In this document: positions 17,876-62,052 of the stretch, piece after piece
Numbering within the stretch: position 1 is the first letter of the stretch
Layout of the letters: every line of letters begins with the position of its first letter
From: Spirochaetales bacterium Spiro_09
GTDB taxonomy: Bacteria; Spirochaetota; Spirochaetia; Treponematales; Treponemataceae
DNA length: 64,000 bases
Assembly: GCA_001604385.1 (NCBI GenBank)
Contig: LVBK01000018.1
Span: 62,001 to 126,000, forward strand
Direction of reading: 5' to 3'
Position numbers and translations under genes: made by a program
Notes under the pieces: generated by a model
Database searches by the model: none
Seen by the model: only the letters and a program-made list of their open reading frames with translations
Told to the model about the DNA's origin: nothing

Positions 17876-17894
17876 CTGCTATCAATATTGTTGA
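17876..17894 (+). repeat. 19-bp inverted repeat, left end of the antiporter unit
   Basis: Exact CTGCTATCAATATTGTTGA, preceded by TA and followed by AA. It begins 3 bases after the stop of the RlmM-like gene. Its inverted partner is at 19431-19449, giving a 1574-bp unit. Confidence 0.9.
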
Positions 17895-17956
17895 AACTCT
17901 TTTTTTTCACCTCTCACCCCGGCAGTGCGGTACCCTGAGCGTGCTTTTATTCGCTG

Positions 17957-19417
17957 ATGAAATCTGCTATTATTCCCAATATGATTCTTATCGTTTCGCT
18001 TTTGATAATTGCCTCCATTGTCGCAACGAAATTTAGCTCGAAATTCGGGCTTCCCCTGCTTATCGGTTTTATCCTGATCGGAATAATCGCTGGAAGCGAT
18101 GTTTTGAATCTGTTTTATTTTGACAATGCGGTACTGACCAAGCAAATAGCGGATATCCTGCTCATTTTCATCATTTTCGACGGCGGTTTCCGTGTTACCC
18201 GACAGGCATTTAAAAGCGCTGCAGGACCGTCCCTGTCACTCGCGACCGCAGGAGTCGTTCTGACCTCTCTAGTCCTTGGCACACTCATTCATCTGGTATT
18301 GAAGTTTGACCTTATGTACTCTCTTCTGGTGTCATCAATTATTTCGTCGACAGATGCGGCTGCCGTCTTCATGATTACCAGATCAAATCCCATTAACAAA
18401 AGGCTTGCAACCACACTAAATGTCGAGTCTGCAGCCAACGATCCCATGGCCATTATTTTAACTGTCGCCTTTATCCAGCTCGTGACCAGAGCTTTTTCCT
18501 CCCCCGGGATCGCCCTGATACGGCTATGTTGGCAATTTGTCGGTGGGGTCGGGCTCGGCTACGCGGTATTCCGGATAAGTCTACTTCTCTTTCGCACGCT
18601 TAAATCCGAAAGTAGGGGAAACTACAATGTGCTGATGATTGGGTGCGTCCTCTTTGCTTATGGAAGCGCAGAAATATTGATGGCAAACGGAATTATCGCG
18701 GTCTTTTTTATGGGCTACTGGATGGGAAACAGTGACATACCGGCAAAACGCAGCATCAGCGGTTTCCTTGAAAGTGTGTCTTCCATCTTTAATATCGCTC
18801 TCTTCATAATGCTCGGACTCCTGGCCTTTCCGCACCGATTTGTGCATATCTGGAAAGAGGCCCTGTTCATCGTATTCGTCATGATGTTCATTGCACGGCC
18901 GATTGCCATTCTGCTATGTACGTTTCCCTTCAAATATTCATTCAGGGAAAAGCTTGTCTTGATGTGGGGAGGCATCAAGGGCGCGGTTCCTATCGTTCTG
19001 GCGACGTATCCCCTGGCAAACGGGCTTGATGAGTCCGGTTTTATCTTCGATACCATTTTCTTCGCGGTATTTCTTTCATGCATCGTTCAGGGAACGACGC
19101 TGGCACCGCTCGCCCGACTATTCCGTTTTACCGATAAACGTGTACCGGTACCACCCCATGTGGTTGAACTGCATTCAACAAAGTCAAGCGATCTTGATAT
19201 GTTCGAGGTTCATGTGGAACCCAATGCGTGTTGCCTGAACCGACCAATCTCTGAACTGAACCTCGGTAAAGAAGTGTTGATTTCGTCGATCATACGGAAC
19301 GGTACTTTGATTCTACCAAAGGGAAATACGGTAATTCACAAGGACGACATACTGTTTATACTTGCTCACTCCTCGCGGATCGAGGGTATTATCGGGCAAT
19401 TTAACGGCATGGGCTGA
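17957..19417 (+). CDS. NhaP2/CvrA-like K+(Na+)/H+ antiporter with TrkA-C domain
   Basis: This 486-residue integral membrane protein has about 12 hydrophobic segments in its first ~390 residues. It matches the CPA1 antiporter family: SSIISSTDAAAVF and NVESAANDPMA carry the conserved TDA and ND ion-binding region. A cytoplasmic TrkA-C-like domain follows (FEVHVEPN through DDILFILAHSS), as in NhaP2/CvrA exchangers, which use the proton gradient to expel K+ or Na+. ATG at 17957 has no obvious Shine-Dalgarno; ATG at 17981 is possible. The gene is tightly enclosed by inverted repeats at 17876-17894 and 19431-19449. It looks AT-richer than its neighbour: sample 60-base lines are about 45% GC here and 67% in the preceding gene, which fits acquisition by transfer. 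Confidence 0.85.
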   Translation: MKSAIIPNMILIVSLLIIASIVATKFSSKFGLPLLIGFILIGIIAGSDVLNLFYFDNAVLTKQIADILLIFIIFDGGFRVTRQAFKSAAGPSLSLATAGVVLTSLVLGTLIHLVLKFDLMYSLLVSSIISSTDAAAVFMITRSNPINKRLATTLNVESAANDPMAIILTVAFIQLVTRAFSSPGIALIRLCWQFVGGVGLGYAVFRISLLLFRTLKSESRGNYNVLMIGCVLFAYGSAEILMANGIIAVFFMGYWMGNSDIPAKRSISGFLESVSSIFNIALFIMLGLLAFPHRFVHIWKEALFIVFVMMFIARPIAILLCTFPFKYSFREKLVLMWGGIKGAVPIVLATYPLANGLDESGFIFDTIFFAVFLSCIVQGTTLAPLARLFRFTDKRVPVPPHVVELHSTKSSDLDMFEVHVEPNACCLNRPISELNLGKEVLISSIIRNGTLILPKGNTVIHKDDILFILAHSSRIEGIIGQFNGMG

Positions 19418-19430
19418 GCTCAATCTACTA

Positions 19431-19449
19431 TCAACAATATTGATAGCAG
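19431..19449 (-). repeat. 19-bp inverted repeat, right end of the antiporter unit
   Basis: Exact reverse complement of the 17876 copy, followed by TA. Read inward on the minus strand it continues GTTGATA, whereas the left end continues GTTGAAA. It lies 13 bases after the antiporter stop and 75 bases before the 5'-nucleotidase start. Confidence 0.9.
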
Positions 19450-19524
19450 TAGAAATAACCTTAACAAAGAATTCACCGGAGTATCCCCCCAATATGCTTT
19501 ATACTTCCTCTACAGGAGGATTAT

Positions 19525-21057
19525 ATGAAACGTATATTATCTCACACTCTCTGGAAAACTCTTTTCGCCGCCGTTCTCGTGGCGGTTGTAGCCAGTGTCG
19601 CCATCGGGTGCGCCACAAGTCCCGCGATTGCCCCCCTCGAAAAAGAAACGGTCATCACCATTATACACACAAACGATATACACTCGCGGACCGCGCCCAA
19701 CAAGGATCAGCTGGGTTATGAGCGCATCGGCGCGGTAGTCGAGACCGCGCGCGCGTCCTCGCCCAACACCCTGGTGATTGACGCAGGCGACACCCTGCAC
19801 GGCTTGCCGATTGCCAACCTTGAAAAGGGGGCAAGCATTACCCGACTCCTGAACGCGGTCGGCTACGATTACATGACGGTCGGCAACCACGATTTCAACT
19901 ATGGACAGGAGCGACTTTTCGAGCTTCAAAAGCAGCTCGACTTCCCCATCCTTGCGGCAAATGTCTTCAAGAACGGGCAACGTCTGTTCACCGCATGGGA
20001 TCTGCGCGAAATTGGCGAGGTACGGGTCGCGGTTTTCGGCCTGGCGTCCCCTGAAACCAGCTACAAAACCGACCCAAAGGGCATCGAGGGAATCGTCTTT
20101 ACCGATCCGGTCGAGGAAGCCTCAAAGGTAGTGAAAGAAATCGGCAAGCAAGCCGACCTGATTGTGTGCATTTCGCATGTCGGCATAGACCCGTCAAGCT
20201 CGCCGACCAGCCTCGACCTCGCGGCCAAAGTGCCGGGAATTCACGTTATCATTGACGGCCACAGCCACTCGACGCTGGAACAAATACAGGCGGTAAACAC
20301 AACGTCAACGGTCATCTCGAGCGCGGGCGAATACGGAAAGGCCGTTGGACGCATCGATATCACCGTCGGTACAGACCGCCGCGTCCTGTCGGCTACCCCC
20401 CGCCTTGTCACAGCCGCCCTTCTTGATGCGAACGCGAGCAGTAAAGCGGTCAAGGCCGTACACGACGACATTGTCGCGAAACAGGCGGGCGTCCTTGACG
20501 AAAAGGCAGGGGAAACGGCCATCGCGCTCGTCGGCGCACGCGAGGTTGTGCGCACCTCGCAAAGCAACCTGGGAACCCTGATTGCAGCCTCGATGCTCGA
20601 CGTGTCAGGCGCGGACCTTGCCCTGGTGAATGGCGGCGGTATCCGCGACTCGATCCCGGTAGGACCCATTACCAAACGCCATATTTTCACCGTGCTTCCG
20701 TTCGGCAATTACGCGCAAACCATCGAAGTTACCGGTACAGACATTCTCGCAGCGCTGGAAAATGGCGTGGGCAAGCTGCCCGCACCCGACGGCCGATATC
20801 CCCATGTCGCAGGCGTCACCTTCACCGTCGATGTATCGAAGGCGCCGGGCAGCAGGGTGTCGAATGTGTTGATTGGCGGCAAGCCCCTCGAAGCGAATGC
20901 GACCTATATTCTCGCGACCGCAAATTTTCTGGTAAACGGCGGCGACGAATACACCATGTTCAGGGGAAAGAAAGTTATCAACGAGTATCCCTCGGACGCG
21001 GAAGTATTGTTGCGCTACATACAGAAGCTTGGAGTTATATCAAGCGATACGCTGTAG
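19525..21057 (+). CDS. 5'-nucleotidase/UshA-family lipoprotein
   Basis: The 510-residue lipoprotein starts at an ATG with a strong AGGAGG upstream. Its signal sequence ends in lipobox VAIGC (Cys29). The N-terminal metallophosphoesterase domain has the metal-ligand motifs HTNDIHS (from residue 48), DAGDTLHG, GNHDFNYG, CISHVG and DGHSHS. The C-terminal 5'-nucleotidase substrate domain contains LVNGGGIRDS and LPFGNYAQT. Family members hydrolyse nucleoside monophosphates, UDP-sugars or 2',3'-cyclic nucleotides outside the cytoplasm, so a role in nucleotide scavenging at the outer surface or in the periplasm is likely. It is followed by a hydrolase gene 35 bases downstream on the same strand. Confidence 0.9.
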   Translation: MKRILSHTLWKTLFAAVLVAVVASVAIGCATSPAIAPLEKETVITIIHTNDIHSRTAPNKDQLGYERIGAVVETARASSPNTLVIDAGDTLHGLPIANLEKGASITRLLNAVGYDYMTVGNHDFNYGQERLFELQKQLDFPILAANVFKNGQRLFTAWDLREIGEVRVAVFGLASPETSYKTDPKGIEGIVFTDPVEEASKVVKEIGKQADLIVCISHVGIDPSSSPTSLDLAAKVPGIHVIIDGHSHSTLEQIQAVNTTSTVISSAGEYGKAVGRIDITVGTDRRVLSATPRLVTAALLDANASSKAVKAVHDDIVAKQAGVLDEKAGETAIALVGAREVVRTSQSNLGTLIAASMLDVSGADLALVNGGGIRDSIPVGPITKRHIFTVLPFGNYAQTIEVTGTDILAALENGVGKLPAPDGRYPHVAGVTFTVDVSKAPGSRVSNVLIGGKPLEANATYILATANFLVNGGDEYTMFRGKKVINEYPSDAEVLLRYIQKLGVISSDTL

Positions 21058-21092
21058 GGCAAAAAGGGTGTACAATACCGGAGGAGGGAACT

Positions 21093-21917
21093 ATGGCTTT
21101 TTCCGTTGTAGAGCCGTACCCGAACATCCATCTCGCGATGAATGACTTCGGGAATCCTGACGGCCCGGTTATCGTAGTGAATCATGACACAATCGCCAGC
21201 ATACGGGAGGAAGAGCTTTTTTCCGTGCTGGTGGAAAACGGCATGAGGGTAATCGCCCTTGCCCGCCCCGGATACGGCGCCAGCCCGCCGCTCCTGTTCC
21301 GCTCGATAGCGCAATGGGGTCACCTGACCCATCTGTTGTTGAGCGGTATGGGAATCCGCAAGTATTTCATACTGGGGATCTCGGCGGGCTCCACCTATGC
21401 CCTGTCAATGTCGAAAAATATCGGCGCGATCCGTACCTTCATTGTCTCGGGTTACCCGGCCTTCTGCCTCAGGGAGATCAAAAAAACCTGGCCGGAGCCC
21501 TATGACTATCAAAAAACGCTCCGTGACTGGATGGTGTACGCCAAGCGGAATATCATCCCTGCGGACTTCTATCCCGGCAAAAGCGCCGCCCTGGACGACT
21601 CGGTGCAAAACCACTGTTTCGGTATTGCCTCCGATTTATTTTTACGCATCAGGAGCTGGGACTTCGACCTGCTCGATATACCCGTCCAGGTTGACCTGGT
21701 CCATTCATTTTACGACCCGGTCATCTCCTATCACTTTATGACGCAGACCAGCTCCTACCTTTTGGGCAGCAAGCTCCATCTGCTCGACTCACGGGAACAT
21801 TTTACGAAGCAGATGCTGGACGACCTGTACCGGGATTTCATTCATGAGGCGGTCGAGTATGAAAAGGCCTACGATGCGAAATATGCCATGCAAATGAAGA
21901 ATGTCAAAAAAGACTGA
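21093..21917 (+). CDS. Alpha/beta-hydrolase fold protein
   Basis: The 274-residue protein has an alpha/beta-hydrolase architecture: a strand leading to VIVVNHD, then ARPGYGASPP, and the nucleophile elbow GISAGS with the predicted catalytic Ser near residue 97. Candidate acid and histidine lie in YDPVIS and SREHFTK. There is no signal peptide, so it is probably cytoplasmic. Start ATG 21093 follows GGAGGAGGG at good spacing. It lies 35 bases after the 5'-nucleotidase gene and is convergent with the diguanylate cyclase. Substrate unknown; esterase, lactonase or C-C hydrolase activities are all possible. Confidence 0.75.
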   Translation: MAFSVVEPYPNIHLAMNDFGNPDGPVIVVNHDTIASIREEELFSVLVENGMRVIALARPGYGASPPLLFRSIAQWGHLTHLLLSGMGIRKYFILGISAGSTYALSMSKNIGAIRTFIVSGYPAFCLREIKKTWPEPYDYQKTLRDWMVYAKRNIIPADFYPGKSAALDDSVQNHCFGIASDLFLRIRSWDFDLLDIPVQVDLVHSFYDPVISYHFMTQTSSYLLGSKLHLLDSREHFTKQMLDDLYRDFIHEAVEYEKAYDAKYAMQMKNVKKD

Positions 21918-21971
21918 GGCAGAACGCCCTTGCCGGCAGAACGGGCAACGGGCGGAGCCGCCGCCATGACA

Positions 21972-23687: not shown

Positions 23688-23777
23688 GCGCTATACCACC
23701 TTTCTCCACAGCCCGAGTACTTGAAGTATAAATCCATTCCGGCGATTCCTGCAACGTCAGGGCAACACGAACGGCCC

Positions 23778-24488: not shown

Positions 24489-24531
24489 AGGGGCTCCTGT
24501 TTCTTCCATACGATGCAGCTTTTTTATAACA

Positions 24532-30718: not shown

Positions 30719-33139
30719 TTATTGCGATACTACATATTGCGCGATATTCAGGCTTACCCACTCCGGCGCGCTCTGGTACGCGGCAACACTCCCCGCCGGA
30801 ACGTAAATCTTGAGATTCACCGCATTCGAGCCTCCAAAAGGCGCGAATTGTCCAAGATCAGGCGGTGTTATAGCGTTGATCGTGACCGATTCAAGCAATT
30901 GGCTGTTGGCCGCAGCATGAGTTCCGATAAAAGTAAGGCTTGAAGGAAGCGTGAGCGATACGAGGTTTGAGGCGCTGAACGATCCTTCTCCCACGCTCGT
31001 TACCCCTTCGGGGACGGTGAGCGTGTCTCCTTGATATCCCTCAAAACTGTTTTCCCTAAGCGAAACAAGAGTCGCCGGGTAGGCATGGGCGCTCGCATTC
31101 CTCGCTGAAGGGAATCTCATAAGAATGGTCTTCGCTCCGTTATACAGCACGCCGTCGGTCGAAGATAATGACGCCCCGCCGGAGGCAACGTTGATCGTGG
31201 TAAGCATCGGCGTATCCAAAAAGACCCTGTCCGAGAATGCGGATATAGTCGACGGAAGATTAACGGTCTGGAGCGCGCGGCAGCTTCGGAACGCATCCGA
31301 ATAGATACCGGTCACCCCTTCGCCGATCGTTACCTCGCTCAGGGAAGTACACCAGGTAAACGCAGAATCGTTTATGGTGGTCATCCCGGAAGGCAAAGTA
31401 AGACTGGAAAGCGAAGAGCATTCGGCAAAGGCACCAGCGCCGATGGTCTTCAAACCTACGCTGAAGGTTATCGAGGTCAGACCGGTACATTTCCGAAAGA
31501 CGTAATTACCGATTGACTGAAGACTTGCGGGAAAACTTAAGTTAGTGAGCTCAGTACATTCATAAAATGCCTGATTACCAATAGTTTGCAAAGTGCTCGG
31601 GAAAGTGATGCTCTCAAGCGCCGAACACCTATAAAACGCCTCGGTTGAAATGGTAACCACACCGGCAGGCAGGGTCACGCTGGTGATGAGCTTATTGCTC
31701 CTGAAGGCAGCGGGACTGATTATCGTCACGGCGGCATCTATGACCGCCGCGCCGCCTTTCGTCTCGGGATACTGTATTAAGGTTGTCTTTGTCTTGTTGT
31801 AAAGAACTCCGTTCACCGAGCAGTAATTCGCGTTTGCTGTGGCTACGTTTATCGATTCCAGTTCGGGACAATCAGAGAACACGTAATCTTCTATTAGCGT
31901 AACAGAAGCTGGAATGGTGATGGTGGTCAGCTTAGTGCAATTGTAAAACGCATTCCTGCCGATGGTAAGCAGGGTTGCAGGAAGGGTAATACTGGTAATT
32001 TTAATCTCGCCGTAGAAGGCCCACTCTTCTATCGCGGTAACGGTATACCCGTCAATGACCGAAGGAATCGTGATAGCCTCTTCAAAGGCATAGTAATTCG
32101 AGAAACCGGTAATCGTGGCATTAGACCCGGAAACGGTGTAATCGAAAAGACTCTTCCACACGGCATAGAGTGTTACGTTTGCGGCTCCGCAGGTGAACGA
32201 ACCGCCGTCCGTCCAGGTTGCGGTTGTCGCGTCGGGATCCTCGCTCCAGCCGGCAAACTTGGTGCTCGTCGGAGCGGTAAAGGTGTTGGCGTTGAGCGTG
32301 GCCGCGATGCCCTCGGGAAGGCTTTGTGCGCTCATGTCGCCAGTTCCGCCGTTCGCATCAAAAGTGACCGTGTGATACGGCGCCCACTTTGCGTACAGGA
32401 TCAGGTTACCCGACGTGCCAGTCACGATCTGAGTGATGGGATTCTCGAATGAGTCATCGGTATACCATCCGGCAAAGGCAAAGCTTGCCTTCGTCGCCGA
32501 TGCAAGGACGATAGTGCTGCTTTCTATTGTATAGGTTGTCGGATTGCCAATAGTATTGGTACCGCCGTCCAATTCATAGGTGACGGAATAGGTTACAAGG
32601 ACCCACTTTGCATAAATGACGGTGTTATCTTCTATTATATTATTCTCAAAATCCCACAGAATGGTCTTATCCGAATCCGCGTACCATCCGTCAAACGAAT
32701 ACCCGTTCTTAGTCGGGTCAACCGAAGGCCGGGTAACAAGGCTACCCTCAACCAGGTCCTGGGCGGCAACGGGCGATCCACCATCGGAATTGAAAGTGAC
32801 TGCATAGTTGTTGAAAACGGTAACCGCGCAAACATCGGTCTTGGCCCCGTCCGTTGTGGTGGCCACGATATCGGCCGTACCGCCTGAAACGCCGGTTACC
32901 AGGCCCTCCGCGGTGACAAAGGCGACATCTTCATCCGAACTTGACCAGGTAAAGGCCTTGTTGCTCGCGTCGCCCGGGCTCACCGCGGCACTAACGTTTG
33001 CGCTCTCTCCAATGGCCAGATTGAGCGTTTCAGGGGTAACCGATATGCCCGAAACGGGCACCTTCGAGTCAGTAACGGGAGATTCGCACCCGATAATACA
33101 TAGTGCTACAGCAATATAGGCACCGATAATTCTTTTCAC
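30719..33139 (-). CDS. BspA-type LRR lipoprotein with BIG2 and InlB-type repeats
   Basis: The 806-residue surface protein starts at a GTG (33137-33139) 7 bases after AAGGAG; a TTG two codons upstream is too close to the ribosome site. The lipobox is IIGC (Cys18). Domains in order: one BIG2 Ig-like domain (about 28-115, VSGISVTPETLNLAIGES); three to four Listeria-Bacteroides/InlB-type repeats (about 115-330, each ending FDGWY..., FAGWY... or FAGWS... and YAKW/YAVW); then about 15 BspA-type LRR_5 repeats (about 340-790, ITSITLPATLLTIGRNAFYNCTKL). Such proteins act as adhesins or matrix-binding proteins in oral and gut spirochaetes and Bacteroidetes; the ligand is unknown. It is divergent from the LuxR pair. 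Confidence 0.9.
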   Translation of the reverse strand: MKRIIGAYIAVALCIIGCESPVTDSKVPVSGISVTPETLNLAIGESANVSAAVSPGDASNKAFTWSSSDEDVAFVTAEGLVTGVSGGTADIVATTTDGAKTDVCAVTVFNNYAVTFNSDGGSPVAAQDLVEGSLVTRPSVDPTKNGYSFDGWYADSDKTILWDFENNIIEDNTVIYAKWVLVTYSVTYELDGGTNTIGNPTTYTIESSTIVLASATKASFAFAGWYTDDSFENPITQIVTGTSGNLILYAKWAPYHTVTFDANGGTGDMSAQSLPEGIAATLNANTFTAPTSTKFAGWSEDPDATTATWTDGGSFTCGAANVTLYAVWKSLFDYTVSGSNATITGFSNYYAFEEAITIPSVIDGYTVTAIEEWAFYGEIKITSITLPATLLTIGRNAFYNCTKLTTITIPASVTLIEDYVFSDCPELESINVATANANYCSVNGVLYNKTKTTLIQYPETKGGAAVIDAAVTIISPAAFRSNKLITSVTLPAGVVTISTEAFYRCSALESITFPSTLQTIGNQAFYECTELTNLSFPASLQSIGNYVFRKCTGLTSITFSVGLKTIGAGAFAECSSLSSLTLPSGMTTINDSAFTWCTSLSEVTIGEGVTGIYSDAFRSCRALQTVNLPSTISAFSDRVFLDTPMLTTINVASGGASLSSTDGVLYNGAKTILMRFPSARNASAHAYPATLVSLRENSFEGYQGDTLTVPEGVTSVGEGSFSASNLVSLTLPSSLTFIGTHAAANSQLLESVTINAITPPDLGQFAPFGGSNAVNLKIYVPAGSVAAYQSAPEWVSLNIAQYVVSQ

Positions 33140-33285: not shown

Positions 33286-34188
33286 ATGCCTTTTATTGCC
33301 TTCCGATTTGCACTTGCCATGCTAACTATCTCATCGGGATGCGCCCTTCTTGTTATCTCGCGAAACCCTGAAAGGATATCCCGGGATCCCGCACTTGCCT
33401 TATTCATAATCCCTCTGATACCCGAACTTCTCTATACTGTAATGGAGGCAGTCTTTCTCATATACGCGCTTTTAGACAAAGTGCCTTCTTCCCTTCTGTG
33501 GTCATTTTCCGAAATAATCCAGTTTACCTTCGGGGTAGCATATATTCACTTAACGTATGAAAGCTGGCGAGTAAACGGATTATCAGGCAAAGGGTATATC
33601 CCGCTTCGCTGGATTATCGCGCTTACCGTGGTAAACTACCTCATCTTTACGCTCAGGTTTGTCCTGCCATCCTGGCTGCCGACTATCCAGATCGCGAATA
33701 AATCGATTCTTGGAGGTACATTGCTCTACGCAGGCGTGTGCGCGGTCATAGCACGAAGTAAAAAGAAAGACTTTTTCCCTGCAACCAAGGCGGTGTTCTG
33801 GATGGCCTTCCTGGGATTGATCTACATTCCTTTCGTGGGTTTGGCAGACATGTTCTCACCAACGATCAAAAACGCCCTGCTTGTTCGACCCATGACTCTT
33901 CAACTGTTCCCGATACGCGAACTCATCATTATCATTCTTTACACCCTGCATCTTGAACCCTTCTATTCACGTTATCTGGGAGGGAACACGCGTATACATG
34001 AACCACTATCAAACCGCGAAAGCGAAATTGCGGGACTTATAAAAGAAGGAAAATCGAACACGGTAATCGCAGCTATGTTGCATGTTTCCCCCGCGACGGT
34101 AAAAACACACGTACGCAATATATTACAGAAGCAGGGAGGAATTTCTCGTGAACGGTTTCTTGCTAACTCAGGGAAGAAAGAGTCATGA
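33286..34188 (+). CDS. Membrane-anchored LuxR-type regulator (first of pair)
   Basis: The 300-residue protein has about seven hydrophobic helices over residues 1-230 and a C-terminal LuxR/GerE helix-turn-helix (LSNRESEIAGLIKEGKSN, then VSPATVKTHVRNIL). It fits the one-component regulators that sense a signal in the membrane and bind DNA directly. No receiver domain is present. The predicted promoter places the transcript start a few bases from the ATG and no Shine-Dalgarno is seen. Its stop overlaps the start of a paralogue as ATGA (34185-34188), so the two are translationally coupled and may form a heterodimer. Target genes could include the divergent BspA-like lipoprotein or the acyl-CoA synthetase downstream. 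Confidence 0.8.
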   Translation: MPFIAFRFALAMLTISSGCALLVISRNPERISRDPALALFIIPLIPELLYTVMEAVFLIYALLDKVPSSLLWSFSEIIQFTFGVAYIHLTYESWRVNGLSGKGYIPLRWIIALTVVNYLIFTLRFVLPSWLPTIQIANKSILGGTLLYAGVCAVIARSKKKDFFPATKAVFWMAFLGLIYIPFVGLADMFSPTIKNALLVRPMTLQLFPIRELIIIILYTLHLEPFYSRYLGGNTRIHEPLSNRESEIAGLIKEGKSNTVIAAMLHVSPATVKTHVRNILQKQGGISRERFLANSGKKES

Positions 34189-35072
34189 AGGAACTGCTAT
34201 CAATATTGTTGATAAATGCGTCCCTTTTCTTGACAGCAGCAATCATCGGCGGAATAGCATTCAGAGCTCGACATGAAAGAGCTCCCGGTCTCTTTTCCCT
34301 TTTATATCCGTTTTCCTTTATTTTTGTCGTGGGTTTTTGGGAACTTCTGTTCGTACTCTCCGATTCACTCTCCCTCAATAAGCCCCTCATCGGTATACTT
34401 GCCACATCATTTCGTGCTGTATACGGTCTTGGATGGTTTTTATTCTGCCATTCCCAATTACGCCTCCACGGAAAGCTTGGTTGGCAGGGCCGACTTACCG
34501 TGCCGGTTGTCTGCCTTACAATCATCCTTGCCCTTGCGTACACGCTTGCTGCCATTAATGGAGAAGACTACATTCTCAGGCTTGTGGCCTTGCTTTTTAT
34601 GTCCGCTACCAGCATTTATTCGGCAATCAGCGCGGTGGTAGTATTACGAACAGGCATACGGCTTTGGCCATCCTCACATGCAGGTGTCAGGATGGCTCTC
34701 TTTGGACTTATTTCCTACCCCGTAACCCTTATAGCCGAATTCTTAGGGGTTACGTATCCTTTCCTGGACCCCGAAAGAGCCGTTTACGAGCAAATGTATC
34801 CTTTTTTTGCTACCTGGTATGCATTCCTTGCCTTACCAGCCCTGCTTTCGCGGGGTAAAGGGCCGTTCACCGAGCCTGGAGACACTCGCGCCATTTCCTC
34901 TCTGACCGACCGGGAGCGGGAAATAGCGCTCTTTCTTAAAGAAGGTAAAACCTTGAAAGAAATTGCAATCGAAATTGGTGTGAGCCCCGCCACGGTTAAA
35001 AGCCATGCAATCAATGCCTACAAAAAACTTGGTATATCAGGAAGAAAAGAGCTCGAACACCTGACAATCTGA
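34185..35072 (+). CDS. Membrane-anchored LuxR-type regulator (second of pair)
   Basis: The 295-residue paralogue of the preceding gene has the same plan: about seven hydrophobic helices and a C-terminal LuxR helix-turn-helix (LTDREREIALFLKEGKTLKEIA, VSPATVKSHAINAYKKLG). It starts at ATG 34185 overlapping the previous stop. The 19-bp inverted repeat at 34194-34212 lies inside the coding sequence and encodes LLSILLI of the first membrane helix. The gene looks AT-rich (a sample 60-base line is about 43% GC). Inversion or loss of DNA between this repeat and its partner at 37849 would truncate the protein after about 11 residues. Confidence 0.8.
   Translation: MKELLSILLINASLFLTAAIIGGIAFRARHERAPGLFSLLYPFSFIFVVGFWELLFVLSDSLSLNKPLIGILATSFRAVYGLGWFLFCHSQLRLHGKLGWQGRLTVPVVCLTIILALAYTLAAINGEDYILRLVALLFMSATSIYSAISAVVVLRTGIRLWPSSHAGVRMALFGLISYPVTLIAEFLGVTYPFLDPERAVYEQMYPFFATWYAFLALPALLSRGKGPFTEPGDTRAISSLTDREREIALFLKEGKTLKEIAIEIGVSPATVKSHAINAYKKLGISGRKELEHLTI
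34194..34212 (+). repeat. 19-bp inverted repeat inside the second luxR gene
   Basis: Exact CTGCTATCAATATTGTTGA followed by TA; read in frame as part of codons 4-10 of the gene starting at 34185. Its partner in inverted orientation is at 37849-37867. Confidence 0.9.
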
Positions 35073-35184
35073 CGAATCCCGGCAACCTATTCTTCGCAAA
35101 AGTGTCTATTACAGAATACGGTCATTACGACAAAAAAACAAAAAATGATACTTTGTCCAGAGTATTCACAGGGAGATACTATCC

Positions 35185-36855
35185 ATGTTATTGAACAACT
35201 TTTTACCCCGCACCGATTTCGATTCTTACGAAGATTTCTATGAAAACTATCGGGTAAATGTGCCGGAGAACTTCAACTACGGCTTTGACGTTGTGGATGA
35301 AATTGCCCGTGAGGAGCCCAATAAAACGGCCCTTGTATGGTGCAACGATTCCTCGGCCGAGCGGTTTGTGTCCTTTGGCGAAATGAGCGCCTGGTCAAAC
35401 CGGATGGCGAACCTGTTTTCCTCCCTCAGCATAAAAAAAGGCGATGTCGTCATGCTTATATTGAAACGGCGGGCCGAATACTGGCCGGCCGTCATTGCCC
35501 TGCACAAAATCGGCGCGGTCGCGATACCCGCAACCAATCAGCTGAAAAAAAAAGACCTTTTGTATCGCTTCAAGGCAGCGAACGTCAAAATGCTCATCTC
35601 GGTGAATGAACCCTCTATCCGCACGGAACTGTCCGAGGCCCTGGCAGAACATCCGCTTGAGCTGAAACTTTTATGCGATGGTCCGTATCCTGCCGCATCT
35701 CCCGACCTTGACCCGGAAGGATGGCTTGACCTTTCCGCATTGACGGAGCGGGAATCTTCCCTGTTTGCCCGACCCTGCGGTGATCAGGCGACACACAACG
35801 ATGATCCCATGCTCCTTTATTTTACATCCGGAACAACCGGGATGCCGAAAATGGTGTCACACACCTATACCTATCCGCTCGGACACATATTGACCGCAAA
35901 ATACTGGCAAAATTGCAGTGACGGAGGACTTCACTTCACAGTTGCGGAAACAGGTTGGGCGAAGGCGTCCTGGGGGAAATTGTACGGGCAATGGTTGTGC
36001 GGTTCCGCCGTCATGGTATTTGATTTTGACCGCTTCAATGCGCGAAGCCTGCTTTCAGTAATCGAAAAATACCGGGTGACCACCTTTTGCGCTCCCCCGA
36101 CTATGTACCGGTATATAATTAAGGAAGACCTTTCGAAATACAATCTTTCTGCCCTGAGCTATGCGGTCGTCGCGGGAGAACCTCTGAATCCGGAAATTTA
36201 TGACCGTTTTCTGGAAGAGACGGGACTGGCCCTTCGCGAAGGATACGGGCAAACCGAAATGACCTGTGCCGTCGCAACCTATCCCTGGATGAAACCAAAA
36301 CCGGGCTCGATGGGCAGACCGTCTCCCGGCTACCAGCTTGCCATTCTCGATGAAAACCTTTCACCGTGCGAAGCGGACCGGCAAGGTGAAATAGCTATCA
36401 TGACCCGGGAACAGCGGCCGATCGGCTTGTTCGGGGGATATTACCAGGATGACGAGCGGACAGCATCGGTATGGAAAGACGGCATATACCGTACAGGAGA
36501 TACAGCCTGGATGGACGAGGACGGATATATCTGGTTTGTGGGAAGATCCGACGATATCATTAAAAGTTCAGGATACCGCATCGGTCCCTTCGAGGTAGAA
36601 AGCGCGCTGCTGGAACACCCGGCAGTCATGGAATGCGCGGTCACCGGAGTTGCCGATCCCGAACGGGGCGAAGTCGTCAAGGCGTCCATTGTGCTTTCCC
36701 ATGGATTCGGCGAGAGCCGGGATTTGATAAAAGAACTGCAGGATCATGTCAAAGCAATAACCGCGCCCTACAAATACCCCCGGGTTGTCGAATTTGTCAG
36801 GGAATTACCCAAAACCATTTCCGGAAAAATCAGGCGGGTGGAGATTCGGGGATAA
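35185..36855 (+). CDS. AMP-forming acyl-CoA synthetase (MACS-type)
   Basis: The 556-residue adenylate-forming enzyme has the AMP-binding signature YFTSGTTGMPKM near residue 215, REGYGQTEMT, YRTGDTAWMDEDGYIWFVGRSDDIIKSSGYR and the C-terminal catalytic lysine motif PKTISGKIRR. The order fits medium-chain or related acyl-CoA synthetases that form acyl-AMP and then acyl-CoA from a carboxylate, ATP and CoA. Cytoplasmic. ATG at 35185 follows GGGAGATAC. The gene stands alone after the luxR pair and is convergent with marR. The substrate cannot be read from the sequence. Confidence 0.88.
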   Translation: MLLNNFLPRTDFDSYEDFYENYRVNVPENFNYGFDVVDEIAREEPNKTALVWCNDSSAERFVSFGEMSAWSNRMANLFSSLSIKKGDVVMLILKRRAEYWPAVIALHKIGAVAIPATNQLKKKDLLYRFKAANVKMLISVNEPSIRTELSEALAEHPLELKLLCDGPYPAASPDLDPEGWLDLSALTERESSLFARPCGDQATHNDDPMLLYFTSGTTGMPKMVSHTYTYPLGHILTAKYWQNCSDGGLHFTVAETGWAKASWGKLYGQWLCGSAVMVFDFDRFNARSLLSVIEKYRVTTFCAPPTMYRYIIKEDLSKYNLSALSYAVVAGEPLNPEIYDRFLEETGLALREGYGQTEMTCAVATYPWMKPKPGSMGRPSPGYQLAILDENLSPCEADRQGEIAIMTREQRPIGLFGGYYQDDERTASVWKDGIYRTGDTAWMDEDGYIWFVGRSDDIIKSSGYRIGPFEVESALLEHPAVMECAVTGVADPERGEVVKASIVLSHGFGESRDLIKELQDHVKAITAPYKYPRVVEFVRELPKTISGKIRRVEIRG

Positions 36856-36870
36856 CCGTGAAACTGTCTG

Positions 36871-37320
36871 CTATAGAGGCCCGTGTCCTGCACGGGCCAG
36901 ATTCGCGATGATCTTTCGCAGCATTTCTTCAAAGGAAGAAATGTCGGCATCGGAGAACCCTTCATAAAAGAGCATGTTCATTTTTTTCGATACCTCGCCA
37001 TAGAGACGGTGCAAAGCCCTGTTTTGTTCAGTACACCGGATAATTTTGCGACGTGCGTCACGGGTATCCTGAATCCGCTCGATATGGCCCTCTTTTTCCA
37101 GACGGTCGAGCATCAAGGTCAGGGTCGACTTGTCCAGCCGGGTCTTTCCGCTCAGTTCGGTCTGCGACATATCACCATCTTTCCACAACGCGAAAATTAT
37201 ACGCCCCTGGGCCGGATTCAACTCACGTAAGCCGGAATCCCGTAAAATTTTACCGAATACCCGGGATGAAAGCTGGTGAAGCTGGGATACCAGAGCACCG
37301 CCTTCAGAGTTCGAAATCAT
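36871..37320 (-). CDS. MarR-family transcriptional regulator
   Basis: The 149-residue winged-helix regulator has the MarR DNA-binding region MSQTELSGKTRLDKSTLTLMLDRLEKEGHIER followed by the wing DTRDARRKIIRCTEQ, between N- and C-terminal dimerisation helices. The start is ATG 37318-37320, which overlaps the end of the PNPOx-like gene by 17 bases, so both form one operon transcribed leftward. A perfect 18-bp palindrome upstream of that operon (37806-37823) is the obvious candidate operator, suggesting autoregulation and control of the divergent MFS-HEAT gene. Confidence 0.88.
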   Translation of the reverse strand: MISNSEGGALVSQLHQLSSRVFGKILRDSGLRELNPAQGRIIFALWKDGDMSQTELSGKTRLDKSTLTLMLDRLEKEGHIERIQDTRDARRKIIRCTEQNRALHRLYGEVSKKMNMLFYEGFSDADISSFEEMLRKIIANLARAGHGPL

Positions 37321-37759
37321 GACACTGTAATCCGTGATAATAGCGGGCTTGTTCAGGAATGAATCGTAGCAGCGAAAAATCCCCGCCATTCAGCCCTCCG
37401 TAGTAATACATTTCCCAGGCAGGCGTCCACACCGCGCGCCGAATGTCTGCATCGAGCACTTCTTCCAGCCGTCCCTTGACGCTGAGGCCCTCGAAGGTCT
37501 TCTGATCCGCATAATACAGACACACCCGATTGTCGCGCCGGATATGGGAGATCTTCCGGCTGGATGTATTTGTCCCCAAGAGGGTTATAAACGGTCTCTC
37601 ACAGCGTGCCGGCCCTTCCGTCAGAGCTTTCTTTCTCATCCGGCTCAAATTGAACAAAAGACGGGTATCCGGCCCCCCGTTTTCATCAATTGTCGAACAG
37701 GTGACAAATTTTGTACGTGCGGCAAGTGCACGCGCAGCTTCGAAGGCAACCTCGTTCAT
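37304..37759 (-). CDS. Pyridoxamine 5'-phosphate oxidase-like FMN-binding protein
   Basis: The 151-residue protein has a split-barrel FMN-binding fold, as in general stress protein 26 and other PNPOx-like proteins: residues TKFVTCSTIDENGGPDTRLLFN form the first strands, then RKISHIRRDNRVCLYYAD and FEGLSVKGRLEEVLD. It is too short and lacks the C-terminal signature for a true PdxH, so a flavin reductase or stress role is more likely. ATG at 37759 has GGGAGGAAT upstream. It is the first gene of a two-gene operon with marR. Confidence 0.75.
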   Translation of the reverse strand: MNEVAFEAARALAARTKFVTCSTIDENGGPDTRLLFNLSRMRKKALTEGPARCERPFITLLGTNTSSRKISHIRRDNRVCLYYADQKTFEGLSVKGRLEEVLDADIRRAVWTPAWEMYYYGGLNGGDFSLLRFIPEQARYYHGLQCHDFEL

Positions 37760-37805
37760 ACTATTCCTCCCGATGTTCGGATAAATTTCCGGCATTAGTT
37801 TATAA

Positions 37806-37823
37806 TAGTTTTATATAAAACTA
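37806..37823. promoter_or_regulatory. Perfect 18-bp palindrome, candidate MarR operator
   Basis: TAGTTTTATATAAAACTA is an exact palindrome between the leftward PNPOx-marR operon and the rightward MFS-HEAT gene. TATAAT (37801-37806) abuts it. The size and symmetry fit a MarR dimer site controlling both directions. Confidence 0.6.
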
Positions 37824-37848
37824 TATGTCAAGAAGTAAATTCATCTTG

Positions 37849-37867
37849 TCAACAATATTGATAGCAG
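37849..37867 (-). repeat. 19-bp inverted repeat at the 5' end of the MFS-HEAT gene
   Basis: Exact reverse complement of CTGCTATCAATATTGTTGA, followed by TA. It partners the copy at 34194-34212 (unit of 3674 bp). It lies in an open frame that could extend the MFS protein N-terminally from 37825. Confidence 0.9.
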
Positions 37868-52638: not shown

Positions 52639-52758
52639 CTGCTATCAATATTGTTGATACTCAAAAGTAAAGCAGAAAACAGGGGAGTCCATGGCATAAT
52701 CATGCATAAATTCTACTTAGTAGTATTCGCAATGGGATTTCAACAATATTGATAGCAG
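52639..52758. repeat. 120-bp unit bounded by 19-bp inverted repeats (tetR-fabD intergenic)
   Basis: Ends are 52639-52657 (CTGCTATCAATATTGTTGA) and its reverse complement at 52740-52758. The left end continues GTTGATA and the right end, read inward, GTTGAAA. The unit lies 31 bases upstream of the fabD -35 box and ends 21 bases after the tetR stop side. The interior shows no coding frame. Confidence 0.88.
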
Positions 52759-54672: not shown

Positions 54673-54682
54673 CTGCTTTACG

Positions 54683-54812
54683 TGCTATCAATATTGTTGA
54701 TAAATCGTTTGATAATACAATGAAGCATACAGATCCCACGGGGAATGGGTGTGCGGCTGCTCATTTGGTCGCGTAGGAAGTGAAAAGTTAGTTTCAACAA
54801 TATTGATAGCAG
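54683..54812. repeat. 130-bp unit bounded by inverted repeats (rlmL-GNAT divergent region)
   Basis: The left end TGCTATCAATATTGTTGA (54683-54700) matches 18 of the 19 bases; its first base is G instead of C. The right end at 54794-54812 is exact. Left continues GTTGATA, right read inward GTTGAAA. The unit fills most of the divergent intergenic region and touches predicted promoters on both sides. Confidence 0.88.
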
Positions 54813-54837: not shown

Positions 54838-54841
54838 CGAT

Positions 54842-57129: not shown

Positions 57130-57146
57130 GCACTGCACCTCCTTTA

Positions 57147-57167
57147 ATATTATACCAAGTATAATAT
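57147..57167. promoter_or_regulatory. Palindrome upstream of padR, candidate operator
   Basis: ATATTATAC-CAA-GTATAATAT: nine-base arms match perfectly around three bases. It begins 18 bases upstream of the padR ATG and overlaps TATAAT-like -10 sequences, as expected for an autoregulatory PadR site. Confidence 0.6.
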
Positions 57168-57262
57168 ACTTATTTATGTAATACTATAACACAGCTTACA
57201 CAAAAATCTGTCACCGGTCAGCCTTCTTTTGTAAAAAATTAGCATCCGGTATATAGAGTTTC

Positions 57263-57291
57263 TTGACCGCTGCCGCAGGAAAGCATATATT
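57263..57291 (+). promoter_or_regulatory. Sigma70 promoter of the copA-copZ-csoR operon
   Basis: TTGACC (57263-57268), a 17-base spacer and TATATT (57286-57291) place the transcript start near 57298, at the edge of the CsoR-type box. Confidence 0.6.
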
Positions 57292-57300
57292 TTTGATATA

Positions 57301-57317
57301 CCACCCCCTGGGGGTGG
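57301..57317. promoter_or_regulatory. CsoR-type operator
   Basis: CCACCCCCTGGGGGTGG is a perfect palindrome around a central T, with the C-tract/G-tract form of CsoR/FrmR-family sites. It overlaps the predicted transcript start of copA, and csoR is the third gene of the operon, so copper-responsive autorepression is likely. Confidence 0.75.
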
Positions 57318-57402
57318 GGTGATTTCATAGTAACAAAACACCATGGTATACATAATTTTGGGAACCCCGGACTAAAAAAAAGATACCAGGCAGGAGACAT
57401 AT

Positions 57403-59694
57403 ATGCAGGACAAAGCGCGCTTTGCCATTTCAGGAATGAGCTGTTCGGCTTGTTCGACTCACATAGAAAAAGAGGTGAGGAAACTTCCCGGCGTATCGCA
57501 GGTTGAAGTACAACTTCTTTCCAATTCAATGAGTGTCAGTTACGACCCTCTTTTGGTTTCACCGGCAGATATCGAGCACTCAGTTGCCGATGCGGGGTAT
57601 GGAGCGACACAAAACGCGGACACTCATGAAACTAAGCGACATAAAATGATACCGCACGCATCGGGTACTAGCGAAGCAAACAACACCAGATCAAGATTGA
57701 TAGTATCAATAGTGTTCACCCTGCCATTATTCTATATTGCGATGGGCCACATGTTTCATTGGCCCCTTCCAGATATTGTGCATGGTCATAAAAATGCTAT
57801 TACGTTTGTCCTTTTACAATTTCTGTTGACCCTCCCCGTTCTCATGATAAACCAGGTTTATTTTACCCGTGGATTCCGCAGTCTGTTGAAGGGTGCGCCA
57901 ACAATGGATTCGCTCATAGCCATTGGATCCGCAGCTGCAGTTTTGTATGGCATTTTCGCACTTTTCGCGATAGGTTATGGTTTTGGTCATGGACGAAATG
58001 ATTTGGTAGACCGCTATTCGATGGATCTTTATTTTGAATCGGCAGCCATGATTCTGACGCTCATCACCCTTGGTAAGCACCTGGAGGCACGAGCGAAAGC
58101 TCATACATCGGACGCTATTACCAAACTGCTGCAACTGAAACCCGATACCGCAATCATCTTGCGGGACGGTGCAGAAATGACAATTGATATTGATCTGATC
58201 GTTCCTGGAGATATTGTCGTTGTACGGCCAGGGACAATGATACCGGTTGACGGAACTGTAGTTGACGGCAGTTCCACCGTAGATTCGTCAGCGATTACCG
58301 GCGAGAGCATACCGGTTGAAAAACATCCTGGCGACCGGGTATATAGTGCAAGCGTCAATCTTACCGGCTATTTTACCTTTCGGGCAGAACAGGTTGGAGA
58401 AAACACAACTCTTGCCAAGATTATTCAGCTGGTGGAAACAGCGGCCTCGTCACGAGCGCCTATTTCCCGCCTGGCGGATCGCATTTCCGCACGTTTTGTG
58501 CCCGCGGTCATACTCATATCGTTCATGACGGCTATAGTCTGGCTGATACTGGGAGCGGGAATATCCTTTGCTCTGACCAGCGCCATCGCGGTGCTGGTTA
58601 TATCCTGCCCCTGCGCGCTTGGGCTGGCAACACCGACGGCCATTATGGTAGGGACCGGCAGGGGTGCACGAAACGGCATACTGATCAAATCGGCCGAAGC
58701 ACTTGAAATTGCCCATGCAGTAGACACCGTCGTACTGGACAAGACGGGAACCATTACCGAAGGGAAACCGGTGGTTACAGACATCTTGTCTCTATCCGAA
58801 CTGGATGATAATGAACTCCTGACTCTCGCGGCATCCCTTGAAAAACCTTCAGAACATCCACTGGCCTTTGCGATACTGACAGAAGCAAAAAAATCGGGAA
58901 TTGATATTGTGCCGGTATCAAATTTCAAGGCGCATCCCGGAAAGGGGATAGAAGGGATGATACGCGGCAAGCGGTATGTAGCGGGCGGGCCACAAATTCT
59001 CGCCGAGAACGGAATAGACACAAGCCCGATAGAGGAGCATATTTCATCTCTTGCCGGAGCGGGGAAAACACCCTTCGCCTTTGGCGGAGAGGGGAAGGTG
59101 TTGGGGATTATCGCCGTTGCGGATGTCATTAAGACAGGAAGCCGGGAAGCGGTGAAGACATTAAAAAACATGGGAATTGAAGTCATTATGCTGACGGGCG
59201 ATAACCGGCAAACCGCGCGAGGGATCGCAAAAGCAGCAGGAATAGACACAGTAGTAGACTCGCTGTTGCCTGACGGGAAGGCCTCTGTTATTGCGGAGCT
59301 GAAAGCAAGGGGTAAAACAGTCGCCATGATCGGTGATGGTATTAATGATGCACCGTCTCTCGCCTCGGCAGATATCGGTATAGCCATCGGTGCGGGAACG
59401 GATATTGCCATCGAGTCGGCGGATATTGTGCTCATGCATAGCGACCTCCGCGATGGAGAGGCCGCGCTCAAGCTCGGCAAGTCGGTTATCCGAAACATCA
59501 AGCAAAACCTGTTCTGGGCCTTTATCTACAACACCCTTGGTATCCCGGTCGCTGCCGGGGTTTTCTACAGCTGGCTCGGATGGCAACTAAGTCCCATGCT
59601 TGCAGCGGCAGCAATGAGCTTTAGCTCAATATCGGTAGTTCTTAACGCGCTTCGACTCGCCGGATCCAAAAAGACGGCAGAAATTCACCAGTAA
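57403..59694 (+). CDS. copA: Copper-exporting P1B-type ATPase CopA
   Basis: The 763-residue protein has one N-terminal heavy-metal domain (GMSCSACS, Cys14 and Cys17), about eight membrane helices, the CPC transport motif (VISCPCALG, near residue 402), the phosphorylation site DKTGTIT (Asp446), SEHPLA of the nucleotide domain and [11 protein letters not shown]. These define a Cu(I)-exporting ATPase of the inner membrane. ATG at 57403 follows AGGAG. It is transcribed with copZ and csoR, and the CsoR box upstream explains its copper induction. Confidence 0.95.
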
Positions 59695-59710
59695 CGTACA
59701 AGGAGTATAT

Positions 59711-59911
59711 ATGACACTTACAATTGGTATTGAGGGCATGAGCTGCGGACACTGTGCAGCACGGGTACGAAAAGCGCTTGAAAGCATTGAGGGTATAACC
59801 GCGACAGTAGACTTGACGGAAAAAAAAGCGACGGTCACTTCACAAGATACCATAGATGAACAGGCAATACGCGCAATCATACGCGACGCAGGTTATACGG
59901 TTACCGAATGA
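59711..59911 (+). CDS. copZ: Copper chaperone CopZ (HMA domain)
   Basis: The 66-residue protein is a single heavy-metal-associated domain with the metal site GMSCGHC (Cys12, Cys15) and a C-terminal RDAGYTV strand. It would carry Cu(I) in the cytoplasm to CopA, encoded 16 bases upstream. Start ATG follows AAGGAG. Its stop overlaps the csoR ATG as ATGA. Confidence 0.93.
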   Translation: MTLTIGIEGMSCGHCAARVRKALESIEGITATVDLTEKKATVTSQDTIDEQAIRAIIRDAGYTVTE

Positions 59912-60183
59912 AAGCTGATCCGCAACTGATTTCGCGACTTTTAAAGACAGCCCGAGGACAACTGGACGGCATACTGAAAATGGTGGAAGAGGATCGCTAC
60001 TGTATGGATATATCGGCCCAATTGCAAGCAACAGCATCCATTCTCAAAAAGGCAAATACAGAAGTTTTGCGCGCCCATGTATCCTCCTGTGTCCGCGAAT
60101 CCATGGAAATCGGAACTGAATCGGACAGAAACCGGAAAATTGACGAACTAATCACCGTTATCGACCGTGTTACCCGCTTATAA
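59908..60183 (+). CDS. csoR: Copper-sensing repressor CsoR
   Basis: The 91-residue all-helical protein belongs to the CsoR/FrmR/RcnR family: RLLKTARGQLDGILKMVEEDRYCMDISAQ then LRAHVSSCVRE. The Cu(I) ligands Cys-His-Cys are at Cys32, His57 and Cys61, with the HxxxC spacing of copper sensors. It is translationally coupled to copZ. The C/G-tract palindrome at the copA promoter is the expected target. Confidence 0.93.
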   Translation: MKADPQLISRLLKTARGQLDGILKMVEEDRYCMDISAQLQATASILKKANTEVLRAHVSSCVRESMEIGTESDRNRKIDELITVIDRVTRL

Positions 60184-60301
60184 TCCTCGACAAATACGCC
60201 GTCAGGTCATATACTGCACAAAAGTTACTAACTGCATACACCGCACAAAGAATTGTCCGGCATGAAGGTACACCGGGCGGTAGACACGGGAAGGATTACG
60301 C

Positions 60302-61438
60302 ATGACGACACACGATATGGCATCGCTTCGCAACCGTCTTCTGGATCAGGTTGCGACCAGTTCCATGATTTCTGGCGAGCACGTATCACGCGAGGTATTT
60401 TCATTCAGCAAGTTATTGGGCAATTTTGTGCACCTTGAACTGAGCGAGGAAGAAGCAGCCCTGCATTGGGGTAACATTCTGGATACCTGGCGTATGATGC
60501 GGGAAAAAATGGGAAGGGAGGTCAGCCTTCACACAGCCATAGCCGATTATTTTACCGGCAGCATTCAGCTTCTTGAAACCCCGCTTCTGGTTGATATGCC
60601 CGTATTCAAGCAAACAATACAAATAGCCATGGTCGACGGCCTCACCGGGCTTTTTAACCGAAGATACATGGATGTTGTCCTGAAAAAGGAATTCAACCGT
60701 TGCGAACGATATGCAAAACCTTTTTCTGTTTGCATCATCGACATCGATAACTTCAAGCAAATTAACGACACTCTCGGGCATCCCTTTGGGGATCGGGTAT
60801 TACGTGAACTGGCGCTCTTGATAAAGGACTCTGTTCGGGAGGAAGATGTGGTATGTCGGTATGGCGGGGAAGAATTTCTGTTGGTGCTTCCCGAAACCGA
60901 AGAGGCAGGCGCGTTCAGACTGGCAAACCGCATCCGCAATGCGCTCAAGGCCAACCGTTTTTTTCGGGAACAAAAAATTTCGTTTTCCGCGGGAACAGCG
61001 ACCTACCCGACAGCAGCACGGGAAATTGATGAACTGGTAAAGGCGGCAGATCGCGCACTGTATCAGGCAAAATACAGCGGAAAGGACCGGGTCATTTCCG
61101 CACAGCCTGAACGCCGCCGCTTCGGTCGTTTTTCGGAAAACTGGCAACTGACCATTTTTGCCCATTCGAACGGAGAACCCCTCTCCGGCATTAAAACCCA
61201 GAATGTATCAATGGGAGGTGTTCAATTCGAGTGTGCGGCAAACTACACGGTAGACACCTGCCTGGACATGGTATTTTCGGACGCAGACAGCGCATCAGCG
61301 GAAGTCAGAACAACCGGGCACATTACCTGGGTGAAGAAGAAACAGAGAAACTATATCTATGGCGTCAGCTTCTCTGATACACCTGAAATGCTCAGTCTCA
61401 GACTCGGAGAGCTTGAAAAAACGACACAGGAAGCATAA
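60302..61438 (+). CDS. GGDEF-PilZ protein (diguanylate cyclase with c-di-GMP-binding domain)
   Basis: The 378-residue soluble protein has an N-terminal helical region (~1-110), a GGDEF domain (~112-265) and a C-terminal PilZ domain (~268-370). The active loop is GGEEF at 188-192, with REED exactly five residues upstream as an RxxD I-site. PilZ motifs are RRRFGR (from residue 271) and NVSMGGVQF. The protein can therefore both make c-di-GMP and bind it at two further sites. ATG 60302 has GGAAGG upstream. It is followed by the DUF454 gene 6 bases downstream. Confidence 0.88.
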   Translation: MTTHDMASLRNRLLDQVATSSMISGEHVSREVFSFSKLLGNFVHLELSEEEAALHWGNILDTWRMMREKMGREVSLHTAIADYFTGSIQLLETPLLVDMPVFKQTIQIAMVDGLTGLFNRRYMDVVLKKEFNRCERYAKPFSVCIIDIDNFKQINDTLGHPFGDRVLRELALLIKDSVREEDVVCRYGGEEFLLVLPETEEAGAFRLANRIRNALKANRFFREQKISFSAGTATYPTAAREIDELVKAADRALYQAKYSGKDRVISAQPERRRFGRFSENWQLTIFAHSNGEPLSGIKTQNVSMGGVQFECAANYTVDTCLDMVFSDADSASAEVRTTGHITWVKKKQRNYIYGVSFSDTPEMLSLRLGELEKTTQEA

Positions 61439-61444
61439 TTCATC

Positions 61445-61840
61445 GTGATAAAAAAATACCTGTTAATTGCAGCTGGGTGCACATCGCTGGGAGCCGGCAT
61501 TGCCGGTATATTTCTCCCTGTCCTTCCAACCACTCCCTTTCTATTGCTGGCGGGAGCCTGCTTTTTACGAAGTTCGGAACGCCTCTACAGGTGGCTTACC
61601 ACGCATCCTGTGTTCGGCCCATATATCAGCAACTACCTCCGCTTCAAGGCTGTAACACTCCGTTCGAAAATCATTTCGATATCGCTGATGTGGGTGGTAC
61701 TGGGGAGCTCAATTTTGTTTGCAACTGAATCCACGCATCTCCGCCTGTTTCTTGCAGCAATCGGCATAGGGGTTACCGTTCACCTGGTGACCATGAAAAC
61801 CCTGACCCGGAAGATGATCGAGGAATCAGCGGAAACATAG
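61445..61840 (+). CDS. DUF454/YbaN-family inner-membrane protein
   Basis: The 131-residue protein starts at a GTG and has the family pattern: IAAGCTSLGAGIAGIFLPVLPTTPFLLLAGACFLRSSERLY followed by HPVFGPYISNY and two further membrane helices. About four membrane segments in all. Its role is unknown. It lies 6 bases after the GGDEF-PilZ gene and probably shares its transcript. Confidence 0.8.
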   Translation: MIKKYLLIAAGCTSLGAGIAGIFLPVLPTTPFLLLAGACFLRSSERLYRWLTTHPVFGPYISNYLRFKAVTLRSKIISISLMWVVLGSSILFATESTHLRLFLAAIGIGVTVHLVTMKTLTRKMIEESAET

Positions 61841-61881
61841 TCCGCGCCTCTGTATCGCTTTCGATTTTTGCCTTGCGCAGA

Positions 61882-61903
61882 GCTGGAACCACCGCGTTCC
61901 AGC
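61882..61903. other. Hairpin in the convergent intergenic region
   Basis: GCTGGAAC (61882-61889) and GTTCCAGC (61896-61903) form a perfect 8-bp stem with a 6-base loop, 41 bases after the DUF454 stop. No T-run follows, so termination is uncertain. Confidence 0.4.
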
Positions 61904-61933
61904 GGCTGCCAGCACAGGAGATCAACTTCTCTA

Positions 61934-62052
61934 CTGCTATCAATATTGTTGATATCCAAAAGAGATACACACATGAAACTACGCGTATCAAAACCAGTAC
62001 GGGAAGATCGTTTGAACATCTCATGACTACTTTTCAACAATATTGATAGCAG
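61934..62052. repeat. 119-bp unit bounded by 19-bp inverted repeats (convergent region)
   Basis: Exact ends at 61934-61952 and 62034-62052. Left continues GTTGATA; right read inward GTTGAAA. The unit lies between convergent genes, ending 15 bases from the nitroreductase stop. No coding frame inside. The first ~30 bases resemble those of the 52639 unit (GATA then CAAAAG), but the rest differs. Confidence 0.88.

Follow-up and report, generated by a model that had tools for sequence, protein, structure and literature searches.

Ten copies of a 19-bp sequence lie in a 64,000-nucleotide stretch of the Spirochaetales bacterium Spiro_09 genome (hereafter the window; bases 62001-126000 of contig C4), and their orientations alternate along the map as if they bounded five inverted pairs, which raises the question of what the sequence is and what, if anything, each pair encloses. 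The genome is a 2.72-Mb draft in 83 contigs and is 88% complete. All ten copies were located when up to three mismatches were permitted, against 0.01 expected by chance, and every position given in the initial annotation is real, except that one copy starts at 54682 rather than 54683. We consider it very probable that an insertion sequence (IS) accounts for the 19-mer, which would be the conserved portion of its terminal inverted repeat, that the short pairs are MITEs, and that the remaining single, or solo, ends are by-products. The copies in the window are as follows.

17876..17894, + strand: solo end of right-end type (GTTGAAA), 4 bp after the stop of an FtsJ-domain ORF; its best partner within 400 bp is no better than background
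19431..19449, - strand: solo end of left-end type (GTTGATA), 14 bp after the stop of a Na+/H+ exchanger ORF
34194..34212, + strand: solo end of left-end type, within the first codons of a LuxR-type ORF (34185-35072)
37849..37867, - strand: solo end that continues GTTGACA, within the first codons of an MFS ORF (most upstream start used)
52639..52758, + strand: 120-bp MITE of family 1, with a GTTGATA left end and a GTTGAAA right end
54682..54812, + strand: 131-bp MITE, bases 2-56 equivalent to the IS left end and bases 58-131 to the IS right end; its first base is G, not C
61934..62052, + strand: 119-bp MITE, divergent, aligned with family 1; flanked by TCTA on both sides

Two kinds of end are distinguished by the bases that follow the 19-mer inwards, GTTGATA and GTTGAAA, and these are the left and right ends, respectively, of the IS described below; left-type ends contain the dyad TATCAA-N5-TTGATA. 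The existence of distinct left and right ends, proposed from the window, is confirmed, but the two types had been assigned to four of the five pairs and occur together in three only, since GTTGATA at 34194 is paired with GTTGACA at 37849. The 1574-bp pair (17876/19431) does have its ends swapped relative to the others, as its inward continuations attest, and a recount agrees that TA stands directly outside six of the ten copies.

As originally reported, no relative of the transposase was found in the window; matches within the genome all fall on contigs C49, C51 and C57. IS left ends (GTTGATA) are present on C49, C51 and C67, and right ends (GTTGAAA) on C8, C57 and C58, all of them near contig ends except one on C57. 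The left end on C49 contains the start of a transposase-like frame, which extends to the end of the contig, and further pieces are found on C51 and C57, every piece being incomplete at a contig end or divided by another insertion; the draft, at its 88% completeness, yielded no intact copy of the IS. Between two transposase pieces on C57, an ORF with an rve domain (L067:577-1830), which we take to be IS21-like, appears to split the transposase.

Similar ends surround an intact relative in Spirochaetes bacterium ADurb.Bin215. There, one locus (L120) has an open frame of whole-family length between 2854 and 4232 with inverted CTGCTGCCAAT ends; because the called start precedes the left end by 33 bp, the true start is probably inside the ends. 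The frame of the intact relative in ADurb.Bin215 is flanked by CTGCTGCCAATTTTGTTGG and inverted CTGCTGCCAATAATGTTGG, further transposase copies adjoin CTGCTATCAAAATTGTTGA, and a base change at position 11 is common to the 19-mers and the IS ends of that genome. G174 holds four IS copies of 1342-1344 bp, and the complete genome G242 holds eight of 1395-1397 bp together with eight paired units of 131-143 bp that have the same ends; among 28 further single matches in G242, nine of the nine tested had a partner 131-142 bp away. The resident IS would probably be of about 1.3-1.4 kb, as in these relatives, with its one ORF as the transposase.

Relatives of the transposase are single open frames of 385-458 aa, in which a predicted N-terminal zinc/helix-turn-helix domain precedes a putative DDE catalytic domain. 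In an alignment of 12 rows (A1), drawn from the best matches of large searches, C-x4-C-x2-H and C-x2-C are invariant, as are the catalytic candidates D171 and D262, with E312 conserved in at least 90%. A fold model from four sequences was unusable (mean pLDDT 37), and the predicted DDE domain is therefore based on the conserved residues. Of 59 genomes searched as relatives, 13 have a relative of the transposase, as do 14 of 295 in a sample of the phylum, this genome being included in both counts; one scan for close relatives, the single search that extended to other phyla, gave four loci, all in Spirochaetes bacterium ADurb.Bin215. A search of 72,556 plasmid records, for which one relative served as the query, gave none, nor did a search of viral contigs with alignment A1. 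Pfam gave no match above its cut-off and the PDB, searched by sequence, no convincing match; NCBIfam gave sub-threshold ISL3 and IS1 matches only, over the N-terminal zinc/HTH domain, and PHROGs a weak transposase match to the same region in one of three proteins. The family is not covered as such by Pfam, NCBIfam or PHROGs, and ISfinder may list it. A literature search did not find the 19-mer sequence, and one that combined MITE or insertion sequence with spirochaete and target site duplication returned a general review only.

The three short units of the window are MITEs, judged by their sequences. Their ends are identical to those of the IS in the same genome, and in the unit at 54682-54812, the left end on C51 agrees with bases 2-56 at 94.5% and the right end on C57 with bases 58-131 at 85.1%; derivation from the IS by internal deletion was found for this unit only. 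The initial annotation regarded the interiors of the short units as nearly unrelated and unlike a simple MITE family, which does not hold, because the inward sequences fall into families when compared by Blast (alignments >35 bp only) and one unit consists of two IS ends joined together. It was right that the ends are almost perfect while the interiors drift: across nine units 119-125 bp long, which include two from the window, identity is 98.8% in the terminal 19-mers and 59.1% between them. Such a contrast would arise because only copies with two good ends spread. We infer that in each MITE two ends enclose either hardly any DNA or captured DNA, and that the IS transposase mobilises the unit in trans. 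Two sites, C4:54945 and C74:32501, were considered as a MITE nested in a MITE and dropped; at C74, the outer ends at 32501-32731 carry a 10-bp repeat, and this interval was counted as one unit.

Insertion most likely duplicates 9 bp of the target, on the strength of direct repeats in the flanks. Flank matches were compared with shuffles at offsets counted from the A[CG]TG tip, and in 25 units of G242 offset 15 gave 149/375 matches against 113.9 in shuffled flanks (0/1000 shuffles; 21 offsets tried). Judged by match count, offset 15 was the only one below 0.05 (offset 5, p 0.109); by run length, offset 5 also gave 0/1000 and offset 16 gave 0.022. The offset-15 matches in G242 stand at 11-17 of 25 in each of columns 4-12 and at 5-8 of 25 in columns 1-3 and 13-15. 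Across 22 units of the Spiro_09 genome, offset 15 gave 111/330 against 95.1 (p 0.013; offset 17, p 0.042; 13 offsets); by run length it gave 0/500 shuffles, five further offsets giving weaker though significant signals, in a test for which one of 25 units was replaced and the two long pairs were left out. The duplication is clear in three of the 22 units (9-11 of 15 matches), none of them in the window, where it was not seen in any of the three MITEs (1, 4 and 5 of 15 matches), and offset 15 was not seen in five units of G174. TA, which the initial annotation had put forward as a possible target duplication, was rejected in that role; the direct-repeat signal is about 9 bp long, at offset 15, and begins 3 bp outside A[CG]TG.

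We read the intervening positions as three variable bases at each tip, outside the conserved end, which would move with the unit and yet vary between copies. In the eight IS copies of G242, which occupy unrelated sites, the left triplet is TTC in four and GCT in three, and the right triplet GAA in three and CTA in two; this recurrence agrees with carry-over of donor bases, a preference for certain sequences being also possible, and the sharing of triplets does not follow the distance between copies. In the outer flanks of copies with at most two mismatches, of which 96 were used after those without enough flank were dropped, weak preferences extend up to 14 bases out (G at -14, A at -12, T at -6, T at -4), wider than TA.

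Genome-wide, 106 copies of the 19-mer were found with up to three mismatches, and none of the reversed control. Pairs and solos were tabulated for copies with at most two mismatches in the stretches fetched around listed copies (n=97); 46 are in inward-facing pairs of up to 300 bp, 44 are solo (28 of them exact), four run off a contig and three more are IS ends. TA lies outside 32 of the 46 paired copies and 17 of the 28 exact solos. The best inward partner of a solo within 400 bp falls in the range of random stretches, bar one copy near another unit. The initial annotation had named copies that were mostly unpaired or randomly oriented across the genome, or empty sites lacking a clean junction, as grounds against its reading, and the genome goes half of the way towards this, about half of the copies being unpaired. 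The alternation that it saw holds across the ten copies in the window but is no genome rule, consecutive exact solos on the same contig being oriented -+ in seven cases, +- in three, -- in three and ++ in one. Given the mixed orientation of successive solos, nothing requires the 1574-bp and 3674-bp pairs to be units, as had been supposed; they are probably neighbouring solo ends.

In this genus single ends are frequent, both as exact solos and in tandem. A sister species of the same genus (G005), which is ADurb.Bin215-like, has 161 copies, with the position-11 base change in 49 of 53 among the matches listed; in the stretches fetched from it, many copies are single or in direct tandems with a period of 21-22 bp. 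At four of its loci (L200, L208, L209 and L210) there are direct tandems of single ends, some of them just behind terminator-like hairpins. No offset consistently showed a duplication around solos, in 10 copies from the sister species and 32 from this genome (p values of 0.02-0.03 were scattered among 39 offsets). Some solos lie within genes, such as a dihydroorotase-like gene, in whose protein the site falls in a loop of variable length; a protein on C76 that carries a solo site has no extra length compared with sister proteins. In-frame insertion of solos into genes is not supported, as alignments with sister proteins show no clean insertion. In the window, the exact solo end within 34185-34230 makes up codons 4-10 of a LuxR-type ORF, which overlaps the stop of a preceding LuxR-type ORF; the window itself starts with a single open frame of 5037 aa (2-15115). 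The solo and tandem ends may be by-products of the same system, left by one-ended transposition or one-sided deletion.

Three other accounts of these repeats deserve consideration. That the intervals 17876-19449 and 34194-37867 are passenger-carrying units, moved whole between two ends, seems improbable to us, even if their surroundings invite the idea. The former holds a Na+/H+ exchanger ORF, tightly bracketed by the ends, whose ortholog in G008 is located elsewhere; the latter holds a LuxR-type regulator, an AMP-binding enzyme, a MarR regulator and a PNPOx-like protein. Five sister genomes (G008, G011, G004, G007 and G001) have the gene order FtsJ-domain gene, 27778-28392 gene, MFS gene, between which the window has two non-syntenic blocks (~9.9 and ~9.4 kb), with the end at 17876 at the left outer junction and that at 37849 at the right. 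However, these blocks are longer than the bracketed intervals, and G009, which lacks any 19-mer, has ~8.5 kb between the FtsJ-domain and 27778 genes, so that blocks also arrive without 19-mer ends. Neither pair has a clear flank repeat (longest run 4), and consecutive solos are not preferentially inward-facing. The blocks are compatible with rearrangement at transposon ends, which does not imply movement of the long intervals.

It is more improbable still that selection keeps the 19-mer chiefly for a regulatory or structural role and that a transposon simply shares it. The 28 exact solos without a partner, the dyad of left-type ends and the proximity of some sister copies to terminator-like hairpins would suit such a site, but of ten further sister genomes, nine lack the 19-mer and the other has a single copy, the left and right differences match those of the IS ends, and in ADurb.Bin215 the position-11 change extends to the ends of its IS. 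Moreover, hairpins beside the copies are not above background (5/47 inner and 4/47 outer flanks in the lowest tenth), a result on which targeting of terminators was also dropped; a sequence logo from the same comparison mixes tandem and IS copies and carries no weight here. REPINs are driven by a Y1 transposase, and we give very little credence to a REPIN population of this RAYT type here. The population does include singlets, tandem clusters and inverted doublets whose interiors vary, and REPs and REPINs are described as singlets, inverted doublets and clusters in PMC3116915. Against this, PF01797 has no match in this genome, an 88% complete draft, compared with 5 of 14 control genomes with a match, and the ends flank a different transposase; because no Y1 transposase was found, we do not regard the population as RAYT-driven.

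With the 19-mer read as the end of an IS with MITEs, a conspicuous repeat becomes a mobile element together with its offspring, and a little-known family of spirochaete transposases comes into view. It is a real mobile-element family; the solo ends (44 of 97 copies) count against the account given here. A bolder view, which we put forward tentatively and think rather less likely to be right than wrong, is that this is a distantly IS1-like, uncatalogued Spirochaetota lineage that carries three donor bases at each tip and, through one-ended events, seeds genomes with exact single ends both within genes and in tandem, giving a REPIN-like population driven by a DDE enzyme. Transposon tips are usually fixed, and to our knowledge coupling sequence carried at the tips is unusual for a DDE transposase; if the triplets are donor-derived, the element would depart from that rule, and if the solos are one-ended products, a DDE enzyme would sustain a repeat population like that of REPINs.

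Among known systems, IS1 is comparable in several respects. Its members have a 9-bp target duplication, which the core at offset 15 in G242, and more weakly in the Spiro_09 genome, matches. The N-terminal zinc/HTH domain is weakly similar (E. coli InsA against the profile, E 3e-5, probability 73.5), whereas the catalytic part is unmatched (InsB, E 0.19), and the best NCBIfam IS1 match among eight proteins scanned, E 1.3e-6 and 28.5 bits (L174), lies below the family cut-off of 100. With the three tip bases counted, the ends of E. coli IS1A agree with the family ends at 8-13 of 20 positions in the predicted register; 10 of 16 such comparisons are below 0.05, and the predicted register is best or tied-best in 11 of 16, the window's own end not being among them. 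The three tip bases are variable here, unlike in IS1. A minority of IS1 members have one ORF, and ISMhu11 is the name of an IS1 subgroup, for which a literature search gave no match. The insA and insB genes of IS1 are two ORFs that overlap and are joined by a frameshift, against a single one of ~390-410 aa here; PMC3196728 describes a relative typical of IS1, in which the two ORFs are frameshifted.

ISL3 is similar in the N-terminal zinc/HTH region (NCBIfam NF033550, best E 2e-7), but its best score of 30.5 bits (L095) lies below the cut-off of 180 and its catalytic part is unmatched. MITEs of a resident IS share with the present units a length of ~120 bp, inverted ends equal to those of the IS, the lack of a transposase and, in one case, an internal deletion; they differ in that the contrast between end and interior identity is large here and exact solo and tandem ends are many. 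REPs and REPINs with RAYT are alike in their singlets, inverted doublets and clusters (PMC3116915), and differ in the Y1 transposase, which was not found in this genome. By analogy, the family would work like an IS with its MITEs, and its population structure recalls that of REPINs as described in PMC3116915.
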